From: Saccharibacillus kuerlensis DSM 22868
GTDB lineage: Bacteria > Bacillota > Bacilli > Paenibacillales > Paenibacillaceae
NCBI RefSeq assembly: GCF_000378145.1
Contig: NZ_KB899277.1
Span: forward strand, 124,001 to 188,000
DNA: 64,000 nt
Direction: 5' to 3'
The notes beneath the pieces are model-generated. The model was not told the DNA's origin and did no database searches. It worked only from the letters and a program-made list of their open reading frames with translations. Shown here piece by piece: positions 1,652-54,770 of this stretch. Every line of letters begins with the position of its first letter. Within the stretch, counting starts at the first letter, position 1. The position numbers and the translations under genes were made by a program.

Positions 1652-3834
1652 ATCTTCACATCAACTCCCCGGTAAGAAGGCGGAGTGTACGATAACGAAG
1701 CATTGGTGTCTGCAGCCGCTTCGGTACTGCGTACCGGCAGTGTATCGGTTCGGAGTGCCATCAGCTGATAGCCCGCAGATTCCAGCGCTGCCGCAATCTG
1801 AGCTTGGCCCGCTTCAAGTAGTGGTCCTGCCCATTCTTCGTCATTGCGGAAGTTCAAGCTGACATTACGATCCACAACCTGTACATCAATGACGGTGCGA
1901 CCAAGCGCTTTCATCTCGAGATCAAACCATAGCCGGCAGTTGGAAGCATCAAGTTCCCCTTTGGGACCACGTCTTGATTCAATCTGCACGGCAGCCGTCT
2001 GACTGCCGTCCGGTCCTACAAACGGCAGAAACATTGTAACTTGTGCAAAAGGAGCGGTACGATCCGTATTAAGCAGCAGCTGCTGGCCGGTCATCTGCTG
2101 AACGGCCTGCTGCGCGGCATCCTTCAGCCCTGCCGGGAGCGAATCGGATGCGGAAAGCTGCAGCAGCAGCGATTTTAACGTTTCGCGAACTTCGGCTGCT
2201 GCCTGCTGCCCAGCAGGCAGCGGAGCTGACCGATCATCTGCCAATGATGCAGAATCGGGACGACCGCCCTCACCCTGAAGGGCTCGCAGTGCCTGGTCTG
2301 CAGCGGAGCGAACCGCCGCCGATAATCCCTCAGGCGCCTCGGTATTTGCTGCTGCCGTACCTGCCGCTTGTGCCGCAGCAGCCTGCTGCGGCTGAGCCGA
2401 TGACCCTGCCTGCTGCGGTGATTGAGACTGAGCTTGAACGGTCTGAGCCGTCTGCTGCTGCGCAGCAGATGCTGCATTGGAAGTCGAAGGCGCGGTGTTC
2501 AACAATGTAGAACGCGCGGTCTGCTGCTCGTGCTCCGTCCCGAGCATCTTCAGCAGACGGCCGACCCACGGATCGGCATCGGCACCTTTGGCCTGCTGTG
2601 CAGCTTGACCGGCTGCAGCGGCAGAAGGATTCTCCGCCGTGCTCGCTGCGCCCGTGCTGCCCGCTGCTGCGGTGCGCAGCTCGCCCAGCAGCGCCTGCAC
2701 CTTGCGCAGCAGTACGGCGTCCGAAGAAGCGGACGCCGAGGCGCCGGCCTGCGGAGCGGCGGTCCCCGGCGCGCCCTGCGGCGCCGGGCCTGCCGCCGGC
2801 GCTTGATTTGCGCCGGCACGGACTGCGGCTGCGGAGGCTGCGCTATCCGCAGTCCGCGCCGAACCGGACGCCTGCGGCGCGGTGTCCGGTTCGGCCGCGT
2901 TTCCGGCGCCTCCGACAGCGCCGGATGCCGCTTGAGCGGCAGGGCGGGCCTGTGCCTGCGGCCCGCCTTCCGCCGCGTCTGCGAGTACACCCGCAGACGC
3001 ACCTGCCGCAAGAGCCCCGGCAGAGCTGCCGGATATAGGAGAGCCGGTATTCACGTTTCCAGCCGTTCCAGCACCGATAGGATTCCCTCCTACCCCGGCA
3101 GCAGTCTGCCCAGCAGCCATCCCCGTACCTGCGCTTCCTCCATTTTGCAGCGCTCCGTTCGCTGCAGCCGCTCCCGGCTGCACATTTCCCGGAATGCGGC
3201 CCGGTACATGAGCCTCATCTCCCGCACTATCACCAAGCTGAGCAAGCGCAGCCGCAACCTGCTGTTCCAGGTTATTCAGCAGCGCCGAGGCAGGAGGACC
3301 AAACACCGCCTGCTGCATGCCCGCTACACTTTGCGGCGTGACAGGCAGTCCCCGCTGCTGCAAAATGCCAATCGATCGTATAAACTGCTGTGCATCCACA
3401 GCTGCAGGCTTCTGTGCCAACAGATTGCGAATCTCGGCAGTCTGCTCACGAGTTACAGGAATTTCCGCCTGCTGCATCATGCGAATCATTTCCCTGTTCT
3501 GCTTATTATCCGGCAGCCCGACCTGCTTCAGCGTCTCCTCCATAGAAGCTCCTGCAGCAGCGGCTCCCGGCGGAGCTGCGACCGGCTTCATCACGATTGA
3601 ACCGTCTTCCGTGGCAGGCTGAACCTGCATAAAAGCGGTCTGTCCCGTCTGCAGCGGCGTCTCAAGCTTGGCACTGACCTTCACACCCTGAATTTGAACG
3701 ACCGCTTCCTTACCGTCGTCCGATACAGATTGAACAACACCTCTGACCACCTGCCCTGCACGCAGATCCAGCTGTTTTATTTCTCCAGGCTTGGATTCAC
3801 CTATCATACTTTTGAACAGCGAACCGATATTCAT
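1648..3834 (-). CDS. FliK/Flg_hook-like protein with long Ala/Gln/Gly-rich linker (YlqG type)
   Basis: This protein of about 728 residues has three parts. The N-terminal ~90 residues look like a small beta domain (VVRGVVQSVSDDGKEAVVQI). A low-complexity Ala/Gly/Gln/Ser linker covers roughly residues 200-560. The C-terminal ~130 residues contain LWFDLEMKALGRTVIDVQVV and a following helix, resembling the Flg_hook domain of FliK. An ATG at 3834 has AGAGGTG upstream and is preferred over the in-frame GTG at 3843. It overlaps ylqH by ATGA. The position after rnhB matches ylqG of Bacillus. No other flagellar gene lies nearby, so it may be a paralogue of the hook-length/switch pair. The large antisense ORFs over the linker are composition artefacts. 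Confidence 0.75.
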   Translation of the reverse strand: MNIGSLFKSMIGESKPGEIKQLDLRAGQVVRGVVQSVSDDGKEAVVQIQGVKVSAKLETPLQTGQTAFMQVQPATEDGSIVMKPVAAPPGAAAAGASMEETLKQVGLPDNKQNREMIRMMQQAEIPVTREQTAEIRNLLAQKPAAVDAQQFIRSIGILQQRGLPVTPQSVAGMQQAVFGPPASALLNNLEQQVAAALAQLGDSAGDEAHVPGRIPGNVQPGAAAANGALQNGGSAGTGMAAGQTAAGVGGNPIGAGTAGNVNTGSPISGSSAGALAAGASAGVLADAAEGGPQAQARPAAQAASGAVGGAGNAAEPDTAPQASGSARTADSAASAAAVRAGANQAPAAGPAPQGAPGTAAPQAGASASASSDAVLLRKVQALLGELRTAAAGSTGAASTAENPSAAAAGQAAQQAKGADADPWVGRLLKMLGTEHEQQTARSTLLNTAPSTSNAASAAQQQTAQTVQAQSQSPQQAGSSAQPQQAAAAQAAGTAAANTEAPEGLSAAVRSAADQALRALQGEGGRPDSASLADDRSAPLPAGQQAAAEVRETLKSLLLQLSASDSLPAGLKDAAQQAVQQMTGQQLLLNTDRTAPFAQVTMFLPFVGPDGSQTAAVQIESRRGPKGELDASNCRLWFDLEMKALGRTVIDVQVVDRNVSLNFRNDEEWAGPLLEAGQAQIAAALESAGYQLMALRTDTLPVRSTEAAADTNASLSYTPPSYRGVDVKI

Positions 3835-4127
3835 CTCGCTCACCTCTCTTCCTTATTTGATGCTCGCCTCACTCAGGAAGCACCCACTATCCGATATATC
3901 GGAAAAAAAGCTCTGGGCAATAAGAAGAGGCAGTCAACTCGACGAACTTTTCTGCGAGAGAATCAAATGTCCTCCAATTTAGAGAGCAGCAATCTTAATG
4001 ATTTCCCGCCTAATCCCCTTTAATCTTTTCCAAAACAGCGAGGCTCTGCGACTCTTGTGGCCGCGAGGACTCGGCAGCTTTACTCGATGACTTTACCAAG
4101 TATTTTATCAACCGCTTCATCTCAAAT

Positions 4128-4805
4128 TTAACGCAGCTGCTCGTATTCCGCCTTCATTTTGACCAGAAAGCTGTGTCTGTGCATGTTGCTGATTCCAAGC
4201 TCCAGAATCCGCTCTCGATGAACAGCCGTCCCATACCCTTTATGGATCGCAATACCGTAACCGGGATAATCCCGTTCCCAGTCCCCCGTACACAACCGAT
4301 CCCGCGTAACTTTTGCAATGATCGAAGCCGCTCCAATACTCTGACTAAGCGAATCGCCTTTGATAATTGCCCGCTGAGGGAGTTCCATCTGAATAGTTTC
4401 CGCATCCACCAGCAGGGCATCTGGCTGATCCGTTAATGCTTCGACAGCCATTTTCATCGCCAGACGCGACGCCTGCTTGATATTGATCCGATCGATCGTT
4501 TGCGGGTCGACCCGCCCTACACCAACAGCAATCGCTTCGCTCATAATAATATCGTACAGTTCATCGCGCTTTTTCTCCGACAGTTTTTTGGAATCGTCGA
4601 TCCCTTCAAGCTTCAAGCCTGCCGGCAGAATAACCGCTGCCGCTACGACGTCGCCGAACATACAGCCGCGTCCGACTTCATCGACACCGGCAATTTTTTC
4701 AAACCCTTCCGACCACAATTCTTTCTCCAGCAGAAGACGGTCGATGTCTACCTTTTCTTTTTTGGACTTGATCCCCGTTTCAACACTTTTTTTCGTTCTT
4801 GGCAT
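4128..4805 (-). CDS. rnhB: Ribonuclease HII
   Basis: This protein cleaves RNA in RNA-DNA hybrids and 5' of single misincorporated ribonucleotides. At 225 residues it is a usual family length. Catalytic acidic residues are visible in AGVDEVGRG (~39-47), LLVDAE and AKVTRDR, with the conserved IIKGDSLSQSIGAASI stretch and a C-terminal HKGYGT and HRHSF. The segment after DEVGRG reads CMFGDVV instead of the common PLAGPVV, a variant I note but do not regard as disabling because the acidic residues are intact. The start has AGGAG upstream. It sits between rbgA and the FliK-like gene, as in Bacillus. Confidence 0.96.
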   Translation of the reverse strand: MPRTKKSVETGIKSKKEKVDIDRLLLEKELWSEGFEKIAGVDEVGRGCMFGDVVAAAVILPAGLKLEGIDDSKKLSEKKRDELYDIIMSEAIAVGVGRVDPQTIDRINIKQASRLAMKMAVEALTDQPDALLVDAETIQMELPQRAIIKGDSLSQSIGAASIIAKVTRDRLCTGDWERDYPGYGIAIHKGYGTAVHRERILELGISNMHRHSFLVKMKAEYEQLR

Positions 4806-4919
4806 TTCATTCTCTCCTAATTTTCCCGTCTATTTCTTTCTAGTTTAACCGATTTCCAACTCTTTTTTGTGTAATGGATATAAAAAGGACCGCCGAAGCC
4901 CGTGTATCAACCGGAGGAC

Positions 4920-4938
4920 ATGTTCGTTGAACGAACAT
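4920..4938. repeat. 19-nt perfect palindrome between rbgA and rnhB
   Basis: Two 9-nt arms, ATGTTCGTT and AACGAACAT, flank one central G. The motif lies 115 bp upstream of rnhB within its 5' spacer. It could be a protein-binding site or a short RNA hairpin; no U tract follows, so it is not a terminator. Confidence 0.5.
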
Positions 4939-5052
4939 CCGTCATCAATCGGTCTACACACTTTTTCGGCGATCCTACACCGCGCTGCCTGCACGGTTTA
5001 TTGTTTCGATCGATATTGAATTTACATTATGCAGCTTGCCCGCTTATGCATT

Positions 5053-5916
5053 TTAGAACGGTTCTTCAAGCGAGAATCGGCCCATTTTCCCTGCACGAAG
5101 TTCACGCAGGAACAGAATGGAAGCTTTTTGGAGATCCACGCGTCCGCCGCTCATGAGACAGCCGCGCTTGCGTCCGATCTCTTCCATAATACGTACAATT
5201 TCATCCGCATCGTCAAAAGCGGTCGGGCGTTCTCCCAGCGAATAACGTTCCGACAAACGAGCCCAGTAATGTTCGGCGCAGTATTTGACTGCAAAGAAAG
5301 TGACTTCTTCGACATTCAATACGTCTTCCTTAATTGCACCGGTAACGGCCAGCTTCATGCCTACGTTCTGATCTTCAAACTTCGGCCACAGAATACCTGG
5401 TGTATCGAGCAGTTCCATTTCTTTGCCGACTTTGATCCACTGCTGGCCCTTCGTCACGCCCGGACGATCCCCGGTTTCGGCAATACTTTTGCCTGCGAGA
5501 CGGTTGATCAGCGTAGATTTGCCGACATTGGGAATGCCGACGATCAACGCCCGAATCGCCCGTGGATTCATTCCTTTGGCGATCTGACGATCAATTTTTT
5601 CCTGCAGCAGCATTTTCGCCTGCACGGATATATCCTTGACTCCCCGTCCGCCCGGTGTATCGGTCTCGACAGCGATATGGCCTTCCTCGCGGAAGTATTC
5701 GATCCACTTTTTTGTAACTTCAGGATCTGCCAAATCCGACTTGTTGAGCAAAATCAAACGCGGCTTGTCTTTCAAAATATCACTGATCATCGGGTTGCGG
5801 CTGGACAGCGGCAGACGAGCATCAAGCAGCTCGATCGCCAAGTCGATCAGACTCAGCTTTGCCTCGATCTGTCTCCGCGCTCTCGTCATATGACCGGGAA
5901 ACCATTGAATTGTCAT
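5053..5916 (-). CDS. rbgA: Ribosome biogenesis GTPase A
   Basis: This is a circularly permuted GTPase needed for late 50S subunit assembly. The G motifs occur in permuted order: NKSD (G4, residues 58-61), GIPNVGKS (G1, 127-134), then DTPG (G3, 171-174). The N-terminal WFPGHM signature and the C-terminal ANTAR-like RNA-binding region are present, and 287 residues is the family length. GAGGTGA precedes the ATG. Its location downstream of lepB and upstream of rnhB is the conserved order. In characterised Bacillus, RbgA acts with L6 on the pre-50S particle and its GTPase is stimulated by that particle. Confidence 0.96.
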
Positions 5917-50025: not shown

Positions 50026-51351
50026 TCAAACACGTTTGACAAGACGCGCAATTGAACGATCCGCTTCCCTCAGTACAATATTGCGATCAAGCGTACGGAC
50101 AACGCGATTTTCCATCACAATTTTGCCATCAATAATGACTGTATCGACATTCCCTCGCGTTGCGGAATATACAATTCGGGAATAGACGTCAACCTCATGA
50201 GAAGGGAACGTATGAAAATCATACAGATCAAGCAGGACCAGATCCGCTTTTTTGCCAACTTCCAGGCTGCCGATTTCTTCTTCCATGCCGAGTACTTCCG
50301 CGCCGCCCATTGTCGCCATACGCAGTACCGTTCGAGCATCCATCGCTGTAGGGCCATGTATCGGCTTCTGGATCAGTGCGGCCAGCCGCATCTCCTGAAA
50401 CATATCCAAGTTGTTATTGCATGGTGCGCCGTCCGCTCCCAGTCCGACCGGCACATGGCGACTCAGCATATCGGGAACTTCCGCGATACCTGAAGCCAGC
50501 TTTAGATTGGAACCCGGGCAGTGCGTCATCTTGACGCCTCTCTCGCGGATAATGGTCTTTTCCTGCTCATCCAGCCAGATGCAATGAGCGAGAATCAGGT
50601 TGGGCTTGGCCAAACCGATATGATCGAGATACACGATATTGCGCATGCCGCGTTCTCGCTCCACAACCTCGATCTCTCCCCGGTTTTCCGAAGCATGCGT
50701 ATGAACCCGAACTTGGTACTGCTCAGACAGATCGCGGACCCCAATCAGCAGCTCTTCGGTGCAGGAAACGACAAATCGCGGACAGAACGCATACTGGATA
50801 CGGCCGCTATCATAACCGTTCCACTTCTCAAGCAGACGCACGCTTTCCTCCAAGGAACGTTCTGTTTTCTCCTGCAGAGGCGCCGGAACTTCAATGCCGT
50901 GATCCATCATGACTTTGCCGGATACAGCCCGAATGCCGGTCTCCGCTATCGCGTGAAACGCCGAATCAGTATGGTGCACCGTCTCCATATCAAGCAGAGT
51001 GGTCGTACCGCTGGAGATCAGTTCGCCGATGCCCAACATCGCCGAATAGTAGATCGATTCCTCATCATGTGCCGCTTCAAGAGGCCATATCCGCTGCTGC
51101 AGCCAGTCAAGCAGTTCCAGGTCATCGGCCCGGCCGCGAAACAGAGTCTGACACAAATGAACATGCGTCTGAATAAATCCGGGCAGCAGCACTTTGCCCC
51201 GCGCATCGATCACCCGGTCTGCTCCTTCACTCGACAAGTCTTCGCCAATTCCGACGATACGATCGTCTTTTATCAGCAGGTCTCCGGTAAATACGTTCTG
51301 TTTGTCGTTCATCGTGACGATTTGAGCGCCTTGAATCAACAGTGTTCCCAT
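50026..51351 (-). CDS. Amidohydrolase (SsnA/TrzN/5'-deoxyadenosine deaminase-like)
   Basis: This metal-dependent deaminase or chlorohydrolase has 441 residues. Metal ligands appear in QTHVHLCQTLFRG (HxH), HTHASEN, AHCIWL and GLGADGAPCNNNLD, and the motif after HxH (DDLELLDWLQQRIWPLEAA) is characteristic of the adenosine/guanine/S-adenosylhomocysteine deaminase branch. The substrate cannot be fixed from sequence. ATG 51351 (MGTLLIQGAQIVTMND) has GGAGGA upstream and matches family N termini. It is flanked on the same strand by a GNAT gene but with separate signals. Confidence 0.9.
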   Translation of the reverse strand: MGTLLIQGAQIVTMNDKQNVFTGDLLIKDDRIVGIGEDLSSEGADRVIDARGKVLLPGFIQTHVHLCQTLFRGRADDLELLDWLQQRIWPLEAAHDEESIYYSAMLGIGELISSGTTTLLDMETVHHTDSAFHAIAETGIRAVSGKVMMDHGIEVPAPLQEKTERSLEESVRLLEKWNGYDSGRIQYAFCPRFVVSCTEELLIGVRDLSEQYQVRVHTHASENRGEIEVVERERGMRNIVYLDHIGLAKPNLILAHCIWLDEQEKTIIRERGVKMTHCPGSNLKLASGIAEVPDMLSRHVPVGLGADGAPCNNNLDMFQEMRLAALIQKPIHGPTAMDARTVLRMATMGGAEVLGMEEEIGSLEVGKKADLVLLDLYDFHTFPSHEVDVYSRIVYSATRGNVDTVIIDGKIVMENRVVRTLDRNIVLREADRSIARLVKRV

Positions 51352-51407
51352 ATCCGATCCTCCGCCTTCCACGCCTTTCTTTCAACAGCCTTACAGCAAC
51401 CTTATTC

Positions 51408-51842
51408 TTACTCTTCTTCGTCTTCCTCCACGTCGTATACACAGCGGAATCGTTCAAGTCCCGACGAACTGATGCCGAGTCCAATGACGGCAAACCCGAC
51501 GCTCCGATAAAAGTCGATCGCTTCTTCGTCCGTTTCCGCGATGACGCGTTCCGGTTTTTCCCTTACCATCAGCTCAAGAATCATACCCCGACCGTAGCCG
51601 AGCCCCCGGCTCTCCGGTTCCACAGCAAGATGAGTAATCGTAATTTCCCGTTCTCCGCTGGAGCGATAACCGATGATCCCCAGGTTCTCTCCTTCTTCGA
51701 CATATGTCAGCAGTTGAGCTTCATCGTTCTCTTCGTAAAATTTGATTGCCTGTTCTACATGTTCGGGATCGGGAAACACGGCCAGTTCAAGAAGGCCGGC
51801 AATATTTGGTTCACGTACTTGGTCTTTAACGGATTGCAGCAT
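51408..51842 (-). CDS. GNAT family acetyltransferase
   Basis: This single-domain GNAT protein has 144 residues. The acetyl-CoA loop is visible as VEPESRGLGYGRGMI and the closing strand as AIDFYRSVGFAVIGLG. The acidic C-terminal tail EEDEEE is unusual but harmless. ATG 51842 is set by ACAGGAGG; the longer frame upstream would cross that site. The substrate is unknown. The downstream amidohydrolase starts 57 bp on. Confidence 0.88.
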   Translation of the reverse strand: MLQSVKDQVREPNIAGLLELAVFPDPEHVEQAIKFYEENDEAQLLTYVEEGENLGIIGYRSSGEREITITHLAVEPESRGLGYGRGMILELMVREKPERVIAETDEEAIDFYRSVGFAVIGLGISSSGLERFRCVYDVEEDEEE

Positions 51843-51904
51843 GTTTTCCTCCTGTATGATTTCATTTAGATTTGGATTTGGACTTTTATAGATGAGATGA
51901 AACA

Positions 51905-51934
51905 ACCGGTTTGCCTGAATTCAGGCAAACCGGT
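51905..51934. terminator. 30-bp perfect palindrome at the end of the hybrid kinase gene
   Basis: ACCGGTTTGCCTGAA followed at once by its reverse complement. It covers the last codons and stop of the kinase gene (stop at 51921) and can act as terminator or mRNA 3' end stabiliser. Confidence 0.75.
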
Positions 51935-53597
51935 GCAGTTCTTCCCGGGCCGCTTCATAAGCACCGTACAGCTTGGGCAGCACATCTCTCGCTTCTTCCG
52001 TACGCTCTTCCCGCAGCGCATGCTCGATCGTTTCAAGCAGCTTGGCAAAATAATCGATTCCGATACTCAGACTGCCGGATTTCAAGTCGTGAGCCGCATA
52101 CATCCCCTGTTTGCAGTCGCCTTGAAGGACCAGCATCTCAAGTTGAGCCAGTTTTTTGGGAGTCTCTTCTTCGTAGGCAAGCAGCAGAGAGCGGAAAATT
52201 TCCGGTTCCCCGTCTTCGTCCAGATCAATAATTTCACGGATAACCTGTGAATCAAGCGCCTTTTCGGAATTTTTCGAGATCCATTTTTGCAGCATGGAGC
52301 CTAATGAATCCATGCTGACCGGCTTGCCGAGAAAGTCGTTCATCCCCGCTTGGAGACAAACTTCCCGCTCACTGTCCAAGGAATCTCCTGTAAGCGCGAT
52401 GATCGGAATCGGCCGACGCATCTCTCCGCGTTCGATCTCGCGAATTTTGCGCGTCGCTTCAGGACCGTCCATGCTCGGCATATGCTTATCCATTAAAATT
52501 ACAGCATACGGTCGGCTGAGAAAGGCGGATACCGCTTCCTGACCATCGCCGACGACCTCTACGGAATTCAGTCCCAGCTTCTTGAGCTGCATGCGAATGA
52601 CCTGGCTGTTAATGGGGTTATCTTCGGCGACCAAAATCGGAATTTCCATACCCGGAGTTCCGAAGACGGGTACCGCACGCAGAGAAGCCCCGTCGCTCTC
52701 CGGCACTTCGGCAGGCGGCAGAGTGATTTGGAACCAAAAATTCGAACCTTCACCTTCCCGGCTGAATACGCCGATCTCGCCTTTCATCGATTCAACCAAT
52801 GACTTACAGATCATAAGGCCAAGCCCGGTTCCTTCTTTCGCTTTACCGGCTTCGGTCTGCGAATACGGCTTGAACAGTTTTTCAATCCCTTCTTGCGAGA
52901 TTCCGATACCGCTGTCCCTGATTTCAAAACGCATAATATTCGGTCCGGCAGCCCCGGGATGTACGGATATACGAATTTTACCGTTTTCGGTAAACGTATT
53001 GGCATTGTTGATTAAATTGATTAATATTTGCCGGATACGTGTCGGATCGCCGCTGAGCGCTTGGGCAATCGAATCGTCGATTTCGCATTCGACCATGTTC
53101 CCTTTGCCTTTCGCCCGCGGTTGAAGCAGCTGTACGGCATGCGTAACGACTTCTCGCAGATCAAAAGGCTTTTCTTCAATATCCAGCGCTCCCGCTTCAC
53201 TTTTCGAGAGATCCAACAAGTCGTTGACCATTCCCAGCAGCGATGAAGCTGATTCTTCGACCAGCCCTGTCCAGGTCCGCTGTTCTTCGGTAAGCACACT
53301 TCCGCGCAGCAGCTCGGTCATACCCAGAATACCATTCATCGGCGTGCGAAACTCATGACTGATCATCGCCAGGAAATAATTTTTCGCTTCGTTCGCTCTT
53401 TTCGCTTCATGTACCGCTTCTTCCAGTTTCGCATTACTTTTGGCCAGCTCGCGCTGGAGCGTCACCATTTCGTTGTTCATGGATGAAAACTCATTCAAAA
53501 TCCGTTCCTCTTGTACTTGTCCGCGTACAATTCGGTCATTCAGTTCTTCAATAACGGAACTCATACGTTCAATCTCGCGCTGTAAATCAACTTCCAA
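51921..53597 (-). CDS. Soluble hybrid histidine kinase (HisKA-HATPase-REC-Hpt)
   Basis: The 558-residue protein has no membrane segment. Order: coiled coil (1-75), HisKA with phospho-acceptor His81 in SHEFRTPMNG, HATPase_c with N box NLINNANTF (194-202), DSGIGIS and GTGLGL, a receiver domain with Asp370 in LMDKHMPSMDG, and a C-terminal Hpt domain with His503 in AAHDLKSGSLSIG. The start is TTG 53597 with GGGAGGG upstream; its first 11 bases overlap the end of the cobalamin-binding gene. With no sensor domain of its own, it probably takes input from that protein and passes phosphate through Hpt to a regulator elsewhere. Confidence 0.93.
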   Translation of the reverse strand: MEVDLQREIERMSSVIEELNDRIVRGQVQEERILNEFSSMNNEMVTLQRELAKSNAKLEEAVHEAKRANEAKNYFLAMISHEFRTPMNGILGMTELLRGSVLTEEQRTWTGLVEESASSLLGMVNDLLDLSKSEAGALDIEEKPFDLREVVTHAVQLLQPRAKGKGNMVECEIDDSIAQALSGDPTRIRQILINLINNANTFTENGKIRISVHPGAAGPNIMRFEIRDSGIGISQEGIEKLFKPYSQTEAGKAKEGTGLGLMICKSLVESMKGEIGVFSREGEGSNFWFQITLPPAEVPESDGASLRAVPVFGTPGMEIPILVAEDNPINSQVIRMQLKKLGLNSVEVVGDGQEAVSAFLSRPYAVILMDKHMPSMDGPEATRKIREIERGEMRRPIPIIALTGDSLDSEREVCLQAGMNDFLGKPVSMDSLGSMLQKWISKNSEKALDSQVIREIIDLDEDGEPEIFRSLLLAYEEETPKKLAQLEMLVLQGDCKQGMYAAHDLKSGSLSIGIDYFAKLLETIEHALREERTEEARDVLPKLYGAYEAAREELHRFA

Positions 53598-54714
53598 ATT
53601 GATGCCCTCCCCTCACTTCCAGACGCCGACCCGTTTCTTCAGGTCTGCTTTCGCGTATGCGTTCCCGCATCATTCGCTCCGCTTCATGCAGCGCGCTTTC
53701 GGCATCAGGCGCATATCCATCCGCGCCGACGCGACTCCACAATGAAGGATCAAGGTTAAAAGGCAATCCTCCCACCATAATTTTCACATTTTCCAAACGC
53801 TTGTCCGCACGCAGATGGCCGATCAGCTTTTTCATCAAATGCACGTGAAAAGTCATTGTAGCCGACAGCGCAACCAGATCTGCACCTCTACGTACAACCA
53901 TTTCCGCAAGCTTTTCCTCGTCGGCATTCGCGCCCAGGTAGTGCGTATCCCAGCCTTCCATCTCGAACACGTCGGTAAGCATTCGCAAACCGATCTCGTG
54001 CAATTCTCCTCCAACGCAGGCCGACACGAGCACACCACCTGTTTTTGGACGTTCCCCACCAATCCATTGTGTATACAGGCGCGACATAGCGCTCTGCGTA
54101 ACCGCTGTACAGTAATGTTCGTCCGCAACACTGATCTGCTGGGTCTGCCACAACCGGCCTACTTCATACTGCGAGGATTGGAACACATACCGATAAATGT
54201 TCCTGATAATTTCTCCACGCTCAAACAAGCTGTCCACCAAAGCATAAGCACCAAGGCGGTCATTTCTCAGCAGCGCGTCCAGGTAGCTTCGGGATTCCCG
54301 GCCCAGATGATGATCTTCGGAAATAAAGGACGGAACTTCAGCTGGCTGCTCAGTTCGCAAAATGCCCATTTCCAGAATCCGAATCGTTCGCTCCACCTGT
54401 TCGTTTCGTTTCCCCGCACGCACCCGTCCGAGAATAAGTTCAAGTTTCATTCGAATATCAATGTCGGTAAGCCCGTAACCGGCCAAAAGCTGCTTCAGCC
54501 AGCCGATATAATGCACAAACAGCGAAGGGCTGTCCATCATTACGCCCTCCGCCAAATAATTCAATGTATAGACGGTATCCCTGCGGGATTTTTCAAATCC
54601 GGGCCGCCCGTATCGATCCATCAGATCCGGTTGAATTTTGTACTGCTCTTCCGTCACTTCAAGCGCGAGCTGTTCAATCCCCGCGAACAAAGTCTCTTCG
54701 GTCCATAATGTCAT
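53587..54714 (-). CDS. Cobalamin-binding sensor-like protein (CarH-type light/B12 domain)
   Basis: The 375-residue protein has an N-terminal helical region of unknown type (1-170), then a four-helix B12-binding domain with the motif W-x9-E-H (W189, E199, H200; WQTQQISVADEH), which in CarH photoreceptors caps the upper face of adenosylcobalamin. A Rossmann B12 domain follows with VSACVGGELHEIGLRMLTD, where E-x-H-x-x-G supplies the lower His ligand (H239), then VALSATM and VGADGYAPDA. There is no MerR DNA-binding domain. The ATG overlaps the stop of a 19-codon ORF (ATGA), which supports this start over TTG 54747. The 3' end overlaps the hybrid kinase by 11 bp, so the two likely form one sensory module. 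Confidence 0.88.
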   Translation of the reverse strand: MTLWTEETLFAGIEQLALEVTEEQYKIQPDLMDRYGRPGFEKSRRDTVYTLNYLAEGVMMDSPSLFVHYIGWLKQLLAGYGLTDIDIRMKLELILGRVRAGKRNEQVERTIRILEMGILRTEQPAEVPSFISEDHHLGRESRSYLDALLRNDRLGAYALVDSLFERGEIIRNIYRYVFQSSQYEVGRLWQTQQISVADEHYCTAVTQSAMSRLYTQWIGGERPKTGGVLVSACVGGELHEIGLRMLTDVFEMEGWDTHYLGANADEEKLAEMVVRRGADLVALSATMTFHVHLMKKLIGHLRADKRLENVKIMVGGLPFNLDPSLWSRVGADGYAPDAESALHEAERMMRERIRESRPEETGRRLEVRGGHQFGS

Positions 54715-54770
54715 AACAATTGCCCGCTTGGGGAGCGGAAAAACCAATTTCTCTCCGCTGTCTTAGTCAT
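54711..54770 (-). CDS. Putative 19-codon leader ORF coupled to the B12 sensor gene
   Basis: ATG 54770 follows GGGGGAGGG by eight bases and encodes MTKTAERNWFFRSPSGQLL. Its TGA overlaps the ATG of the cobalamin-binding gene. The sensor gene itself has no good ribosome binding site, so translation of this ORF may be needed for its expression. Confidence 0.5.
   Translation of the reverse strand: MTKTAERNWFFRSPSGQLL

Follow-up and report, generated by a model that had tools for sequence, protein, structure and literature searches.

A photocobilin-type sensor gene and its probable partner kinase

We analyzed a window of 64,000 nucleotides from Saccharibacillus kuerlensis DSM 22868 (contig NZ_KB899277.1, positions 124,001 to 188,000), in which the gene of a putative light sensor overlaps the gene of a soluble hybrid histidine kinase (Table 1). 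The sensor reading frame was taken from its ATG at 54714, and the second in-frame start is a TTG at 54747. Pfam identified B12-binding_2 (E 9e-12) and B12-binding (E 5.6e-25) domains in the encoded protein and no MerR domain, and the CarH model NF052513 (NCBIfam) scored only 41.9 bits, below its cut-off of 400. The original prediction for this locus, which described a CarH-like cobalamin sensor without a DNA-binding domain, was right about the missing domain and about the motif positions (GRLW at 186-189, EH at 199-200 and GELH at 236-239), and its CarH-like label suits the B12 half. It overlooked the photoglobin in front, a second, bilin-type sensor domain formed by the N-terminal 135 residues, and photocobilins are closer to the protein than CarH. 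The nearest solved structures by sequence were the photocobilins SasPcob and AbPcob, ahead of CarH, and the next-best match after photocobilins was the MerR-family light-responsive protein 8jbs (E 4e-18). As in photocobilins, a globin domain of the bilin-binding kind is attached to a B12 half with W-(9/10)x-EH and E/DxH motifs, and the predicted structure reached a predicted template modelling score (pTM) of 0.79. Judged from its sequence, the sensor is a photocobilin-type protein with a bilin-type globin in front rather than a CarH that has lost one domain.

Table 1 Features of the sensor-kinase locus (positions in the window).
Feature	Position	Strand	Details
Photocobilin-type protein	53587..54714	-	375 aa; photoglobin (1-135), then B12 half (136-352)
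Photoglobin domain (bilin-binding-type globin), residues 1-135	54310..54714	-	D46/W72 at the positions of SasPcob Asp270/Trp296
CarH-like B12 half, residues 136-352	53659..54309	-	Four-helix bundle and Rossmann fold; W189, E199, H200, H239
Overlap of sensor and kinase genes, 11 bp	53587..53597	-	
Soluble hybrid histidine kinase	51921..53597	-	558 aa; HisKA (71-136), HATPase_c (183-293), REC (321-436), Hpt (471-550)
28-residue linker signature of photocobilin partners	53415..53498	-	Consensus YxEFSxLNNELVxxQRELAKxNxEL, just before HisKA

The kinase starts with a TTG behind GGGGAGGG and carries the motifs of a hybrid kinase with Hpt domain (SHEFRTP, GTGLGL, ILMDKHMP and AAHDLKSGS). Its N-terminus is helical-looking, with no Pfam match before residue 71, and no transmembrane-like stretch was found in the protein (best 19-residue Kyte-Doolittle mean 1.22), bearing out the earlier view of a soluble kinase that lacks its own sensor domain. 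The two genes had also been called fused by overlap. The overlap is real and, with an aligned TTG start, recurs in seven of the eight nearest relatives whose sensor is intact (L031-L038, with L035 as the exception), but "fused" is too strong a word as the genes are separate in more distant relatives, for example by a 19 bp gap in L040. REC and Hpt profiles matched partner kinases of Paenibacillus, Saccharibacillus and Heliorestis and were mostly absent in other loci. Partner kinases from 19 loci of other phyla and five Paenibacillus loci aligned over about 110 extra N-terminal residues, which the window kinase lacks and which look PAS-like in sequence; Pfam reported a PAS domain in 3/10 partner kinases scanned.

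Residues of the chromophore pockets

Sensor homologs were aligned in 104 rows, from which L054 (a false second domain had been taken; D and W are present when read by eye) and L126 (truncated N-terminus) were dropped; of the 102 rows kept, 13 are duplicates, leaving 89 distinct sequences. Only D46, L54 and W72 are invariant among positions 1-128, D46 being Asp in 89/89 distinct sequences, and the 14 distant rows listed share 24 to 38% identity with the window globin domain. In the B12 half, which was counted over 87 distinct sequences including that of the window (L056 and L057, without a whole B12 half, were left out), W189, E199, H200, H239, E240 and G242 are invariant, so the B12 motifs do not reflect chance.

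When aligned to SasPcob, whose chain file is offset by 6 (Trp61 is residue 55 and Glu71-His72 are residues 65-66), D46 lies opposite chain residue 264 (Asp270) and W72 opposite chain residue 290 (Trp296). According to PMC10979010, Asp270 of SasPcob holds the three co-planar bilin rings A, B and C, Trp296 is placed at ring D and bonds to the corrin as well, and the globin contacts both parts of the B12 half. The same source names His as the Asp270 counterpart in AbPcob, a weak bilin binder, and our alignment agrees by placing His opposite D46. The bilin-linking position of the window protein is occupied by S43, not Cys. Elsewhere, a Cys was seen at the phycobiliprotein bilin-linking position (CxxD) in L104, L106, L116, L122, L127 and L057, and in L200 and L202; on this motif, covalent bilin binding is possible in these photoglobins.

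In CarH, H132 beside the pocket Trp is the light-state ligand. The residue after W189 is Gln in 98/102 rows (Q190 in the window protein), His in two and a gap in two, and SasPcob also has Gln after its pocket Trp. The light state of SasPcob is described as having water or hydroxide on the cobalt, not the bis-His ligation of CarH (PMC10979010). From the light-response signature given in PMC11796333 (GxxW, EH, GxxH and GxxxP), the window protein has GxxW, EH and GxxH.

Conservation of the sensor-kinase pair

The original prediction would have been refuted by a pair that did not stay together in relatives, and the adjacency proved to be strongly conserved. A kinase adjoins the sensor in 20/20 relatives around the best matches, while flanking genes vary between groups. 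Contigs were then scanned with the alignment, retaining 80 of 127 confirmed relatives; the scan patterns were drawn from the B12 half and therefore did not select for a kinase. A same-strand kinase open reading frame (ORF) was found within 500 nt downstream in 79/80 loci, at a distance of at most 60 nt in 77 of these. Thirty of the 80 loci fall outside Paenibacillaceae and kin, in Chloroflexi, Desulfobacterota, gamma- and betaproteobacteria, Spirochaetes, Bacteroidota, Cloacimonadota, Actinomycetota, Aminicenantes, Heliorestis, Methanohalophilus and Methanolobus. The pair also occurs on large plasmids of Azospirillum brasilense Sp7 and A. thermophilum (three of the 36 plasmid records with a match were examined). 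Tree distances of sensors and kinases correlated with r 0.73 over 75 of the 79 pairs, short kinase matches being left out, and in the tree the partner kinases were not cleanly separated from the other kinases encoded at these loci.

Some loci contain altered sensors. In L194 (G145, 2544-5540) the photocobilin is divided between two ORFs some 1.8 kb apart; a linker kinase comes after them, and a REC-Hpt protein is encoded just upstream. The match to the G366 sensor is interrupted by a stop. In L197, L198 (G323) and L199 the photoglobin stands alone and is short, at about 130-150 residues; in L198, a separate B12-domain gene directly follows the photoglobin, a split version of the same sensor.

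A linker signature in front of HisKA

The linker core pattern was present in 66/79 partner kinases and in none of 24 further kinases encoded at these loci. A 28-residue profile was trained on 28 pattern-bearing partner kinases, the window's included, and searched against 299 genomes of the phylum, producing seven matches below 1e-6, all of which lie beside a B12-domain gene; six of the seven strong-match genomes are among the seven phylum genomes with a photoglobin. Five of the seven strong matches run into a kinase. In L176 (G243, 2-2070), the linker protein directly follows the photocobilin and ends in a C-terminal GGDEF cyclase, which supports a swappable linker, and in G081 the linker lies in a short broken frame with no kinase match. 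A weaker match, L193 (G147, 2685-4802), is a linker-GGDEF protein that follows a B12-domain protein whose N-terminus differs, so that the linker precedes a cyclase in two other genomes; for another weaker match, in G131, no B12 domain was found. These sequences suggest that the linker is kept together with the B12 protein and that the output part is what varies.

Within the order, 392 genomes were surveyed, several of which overlap the training rows of the linker profile. A same-strand linker match was found 932 to 1512 bases on from 101/111 photoglobin places. By genome, 99 had both, 6 a photoglobin only, 8 a linker only and 279 neither. The other ten photoglobin places hold either short globins that stand alone or copies that are degraded or truncated, as judged from open-frame length and, for four of the ten, from their surroundings, and no photoglobin with a full-length frame lacked a linker partner in this sample.

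Bilin supply

The window genome encodes a haem oxygenase, about 1.2 kb from which a phytochrome (PHY) domain begins (contig C4:118703-120906). The bacterium has two candidate bilin photoreceptors, the photocobilin and this phytochrome-type gene. Across the order, haem oxygenase was present in 67/105 photoglobin genomes and 15/287 others, counts that ignore kinship. PHY was found in 16/16 sampled genomes of the window's genus and in 23 of 28 photoglobin and oxygenase genomes of another genus (28 of 39 taken; a further one, G021, was without), and in a third genus only 2/17 photoglobin genomes had the oxygenase. Co-occurrence with haem oxygenase was rejected as support for biliverdin as it is confounded by phytochromes; the association shows only that biliverdin can be made. 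For the anaerobic route of haem cleavage (HutW, TIGR04107), none of 39 genomes had a match above the cut-off, and matches below it were seen in 39/39 of these and in 14/14 control genomes.

Surroundings of the locus

The photocobilin and kinase genes lie in a same-strand run (-) with genes for a GNAT acetyltransferase (51408-51905) and, as its last member, a 5'-deoxyadenosine deaminase (50026-51372; NF005557, 725.7 bits, cut-off 522). The deaminase occupies the same place in 5/10 genomes (the window's and its nine closest relatives), and any part that it may have in removing the adenosyl group is pure speculation. No Rfam family, cobalamin riboswitch or other known RNA, reached its gathering score in the window, and a promoter scan upstream of the sensor found none. 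One terminator-like site was observed upstream (54723-54739), compared to 0.5 (standard deviation 0.8) in shuffles.

A proposed mechanism and its alternatives

We consider it likely that the pair forms a two-gene light-input module, in which the photocobilin would act in trans on the soluble kinase. Chromophores and photochemistry are here borrowed from published photocobilins. By this analogy, the photocobilin would hold adenosylcobalamin (AdoCbl) in the dark, with H239 as lower ligand and W189 and E199/H200 around the adenosyl group; biliverdin, where available, would be held by D46, with W72 at the bilin-corrin edge. Illumination of the cobalamin with green light, or of the bilin with red light, would break the Co-C bond, the adenosyl group would leave and the oligomeric state of the photocobilin would change. 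The photocobilin would then act in trans on the sensor-less kinase, most likely at the linker just before HisKA, and thereby control how phosphate passes through HisKA, REC and Hpt towards a response regulator whose gene would lie elsewhere. Both the docking site and the effect of light on the kinase are inferred here, as are the direction of control and the output. Of the B12-based input to a phosphorelay originally proposed, light input remains the best reading, with a reservation arising from kinases that outlive their sensors.

Several observations weigh against such a module. In 11 genomes of the order, the linker kinase remains although its sensor is lost or seems to be broken. Eight of these show no photoglobin match; three of the eight (G436, G447 and G469) retain B12-domain remnants just upstream, and in five no such remnant was seen. 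In L050 (G014), the kinase frame is intact beside a broken sensor whose pieces match residues 1-202 and 294-375, the cobalt-ligand region being missing, and G367 and G536 have partial globin matches with an internal stop beside a 570-residue kinase frame. Sensors thus appear more prone to loss than kinases. The kinase is therefore likely to signal, or to sit in one state, without its sensor, and it may have work of its own. With regard to the pigment, haem oxygenase (PF01126) was missing from 27 of the 28 genomes searched outside Paenibacillaceae, many of them metagenome assemblies (28 of the 30 loci were covered; L106 and L117 were left out), and that of the window genome lies by the phytochrome, so biliverdin is only a putative pigment of the window protein in vivo. 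The globin profile also fails to reach AbPcob, the sequence alignment with SasPcob starts only at D46, and the Gly of GxxH is found in only 44/104 rows, including the window. One of the 80 loci (L130, Aminicenantes) has no partner kinase, Skermanella rosea has a photocobilin without the kinase, and outside Paenibacillaceae the tree-distance correlation is weak (r 0.33, 25 pairs; permutation 99% value 0.29, largest 0.45). A displaced partner kinase was considered for L130 and rejected, the nearby kinase grouping only with the two L115 kinases (support 0.993).

The genomes lacking PF01126 lend some weight to a cobalamin-status sensor, in which the B12 half would report the presence or integrity of AdoCbl, light would be incidental and the photoglobin would only shield the corrin. 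Among them are several members of largely anaerobic groups (methanogens, Anaerolineae and treponemes). The contacts of SasPcob Trp296 with the corrin besides the bilin, and of its globin with both B12-half parts (PMC10979010), would also suit a shielding role. We nevertheless regard this explanation as unlikely, given that D46, the counterpart of the bilin-holding residue, for which the weak binder AbPcob has His, is never replaced, and that W189, E199 and H200, part of the reported light-response signature, are invariant. Alternatively, the photocobilin might not act on its neighbor at all, the genes being merely co-transcribed and the kinase receiving its inputs elsewhere, as the kinases kept without a working sensor and the PAS-like region of many partner kinases in other phyla could suggest. 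This appears improbable because adjacency survives across phyla while other neighbors change, the linker signature occurs almost only beside B12-domain genes, cyclase output included, and the window kinase has no other recognized input domain. Descent from a CarH-type transcriptional regulator stripped of its DNA-binding domain, to which the W/EH/H motif and the 8jbs match could point, is hardly credible for a protein that begins with a photoglobin instead of a MerR remnant, is closer to photocobilins than to CarH, and has Gln after W189 where CarH numbering has H132.

Beyond the light-input module proposed for the window, globin-first photocobilins may constitute a widespread cross-domain module that plugs into a separate output protein, in most cases a kinase and in some a cyclase, through a dedicated linker that is retained when the output is exchanged. 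Where haem oxygenase is absent, they may hold either no bilin-type pigment or a linear tetrapyrrole different from biliverdin. We regard this wider reading as possible, if somewhat doubtful; if true, the same Asp-Trp pocket would serve a pigment not yet identified.

Relation to known systems and implications

Photoglobins, consisting of a globin and a B12 domain, were reportedly tied to signal transduction by Schneider and colleagues in 2022. TtCarH and LitR share the AdoCbl pocket motifs with the window sensor, which differs by its lack of a MerR domain, its extra globin domain and the Gln after Trp. To our knowledge, AerR of Rhodobacter capsulatus (7te2) has no photoglobin, and its partner is not a kinase. 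The bilin biosynthesis-associated globins BBAG-2 (PMC10151467) are a related bilin-binding globin lineage beside B12 proteins, with globin and B12 domain as separate genes there and one fused protein here. SasPcob (8j2w, 8j2x) and AbDPcob (8j2y) are alike in combining a B12 half bearing W/EH/H motifs with a bilin-type globin (PMC10979010); in the window protein the globin comes first, and the apparent output is a separate kinase gene as opposed to their fused cyclase. That study (2024) groups photocobilins by an AdoCbl domain at the N- or C-terminus, reports photoglobins linked to other functional domains, shows that photocobilins acting in trans change how fast a separate cyclase works, and describes the function of those that stand alone as "less clear"; the word "kinase" does not occur in its main text. 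Photocobilins and the globin-first order are already known. A dedicated partner with a linker signature, and its spread, were not found in the literature searched, which comprised listings and left supplements and the original photoglobin paper uncovered.

Overall, a large group of stand-alone photocobilins gains a candidate target, an adjacent kinase with a recognizable linker. If light input is true, B12 light sensing would extend to two-component signaling in several phyla, methanogens included. The question is then raised of which pigment, if any, fills the conserved pocket in genomes without haem oxygenase. For optogenetics, the locus suggests a natural, separable pair of green/red photoreceptor and kinase.
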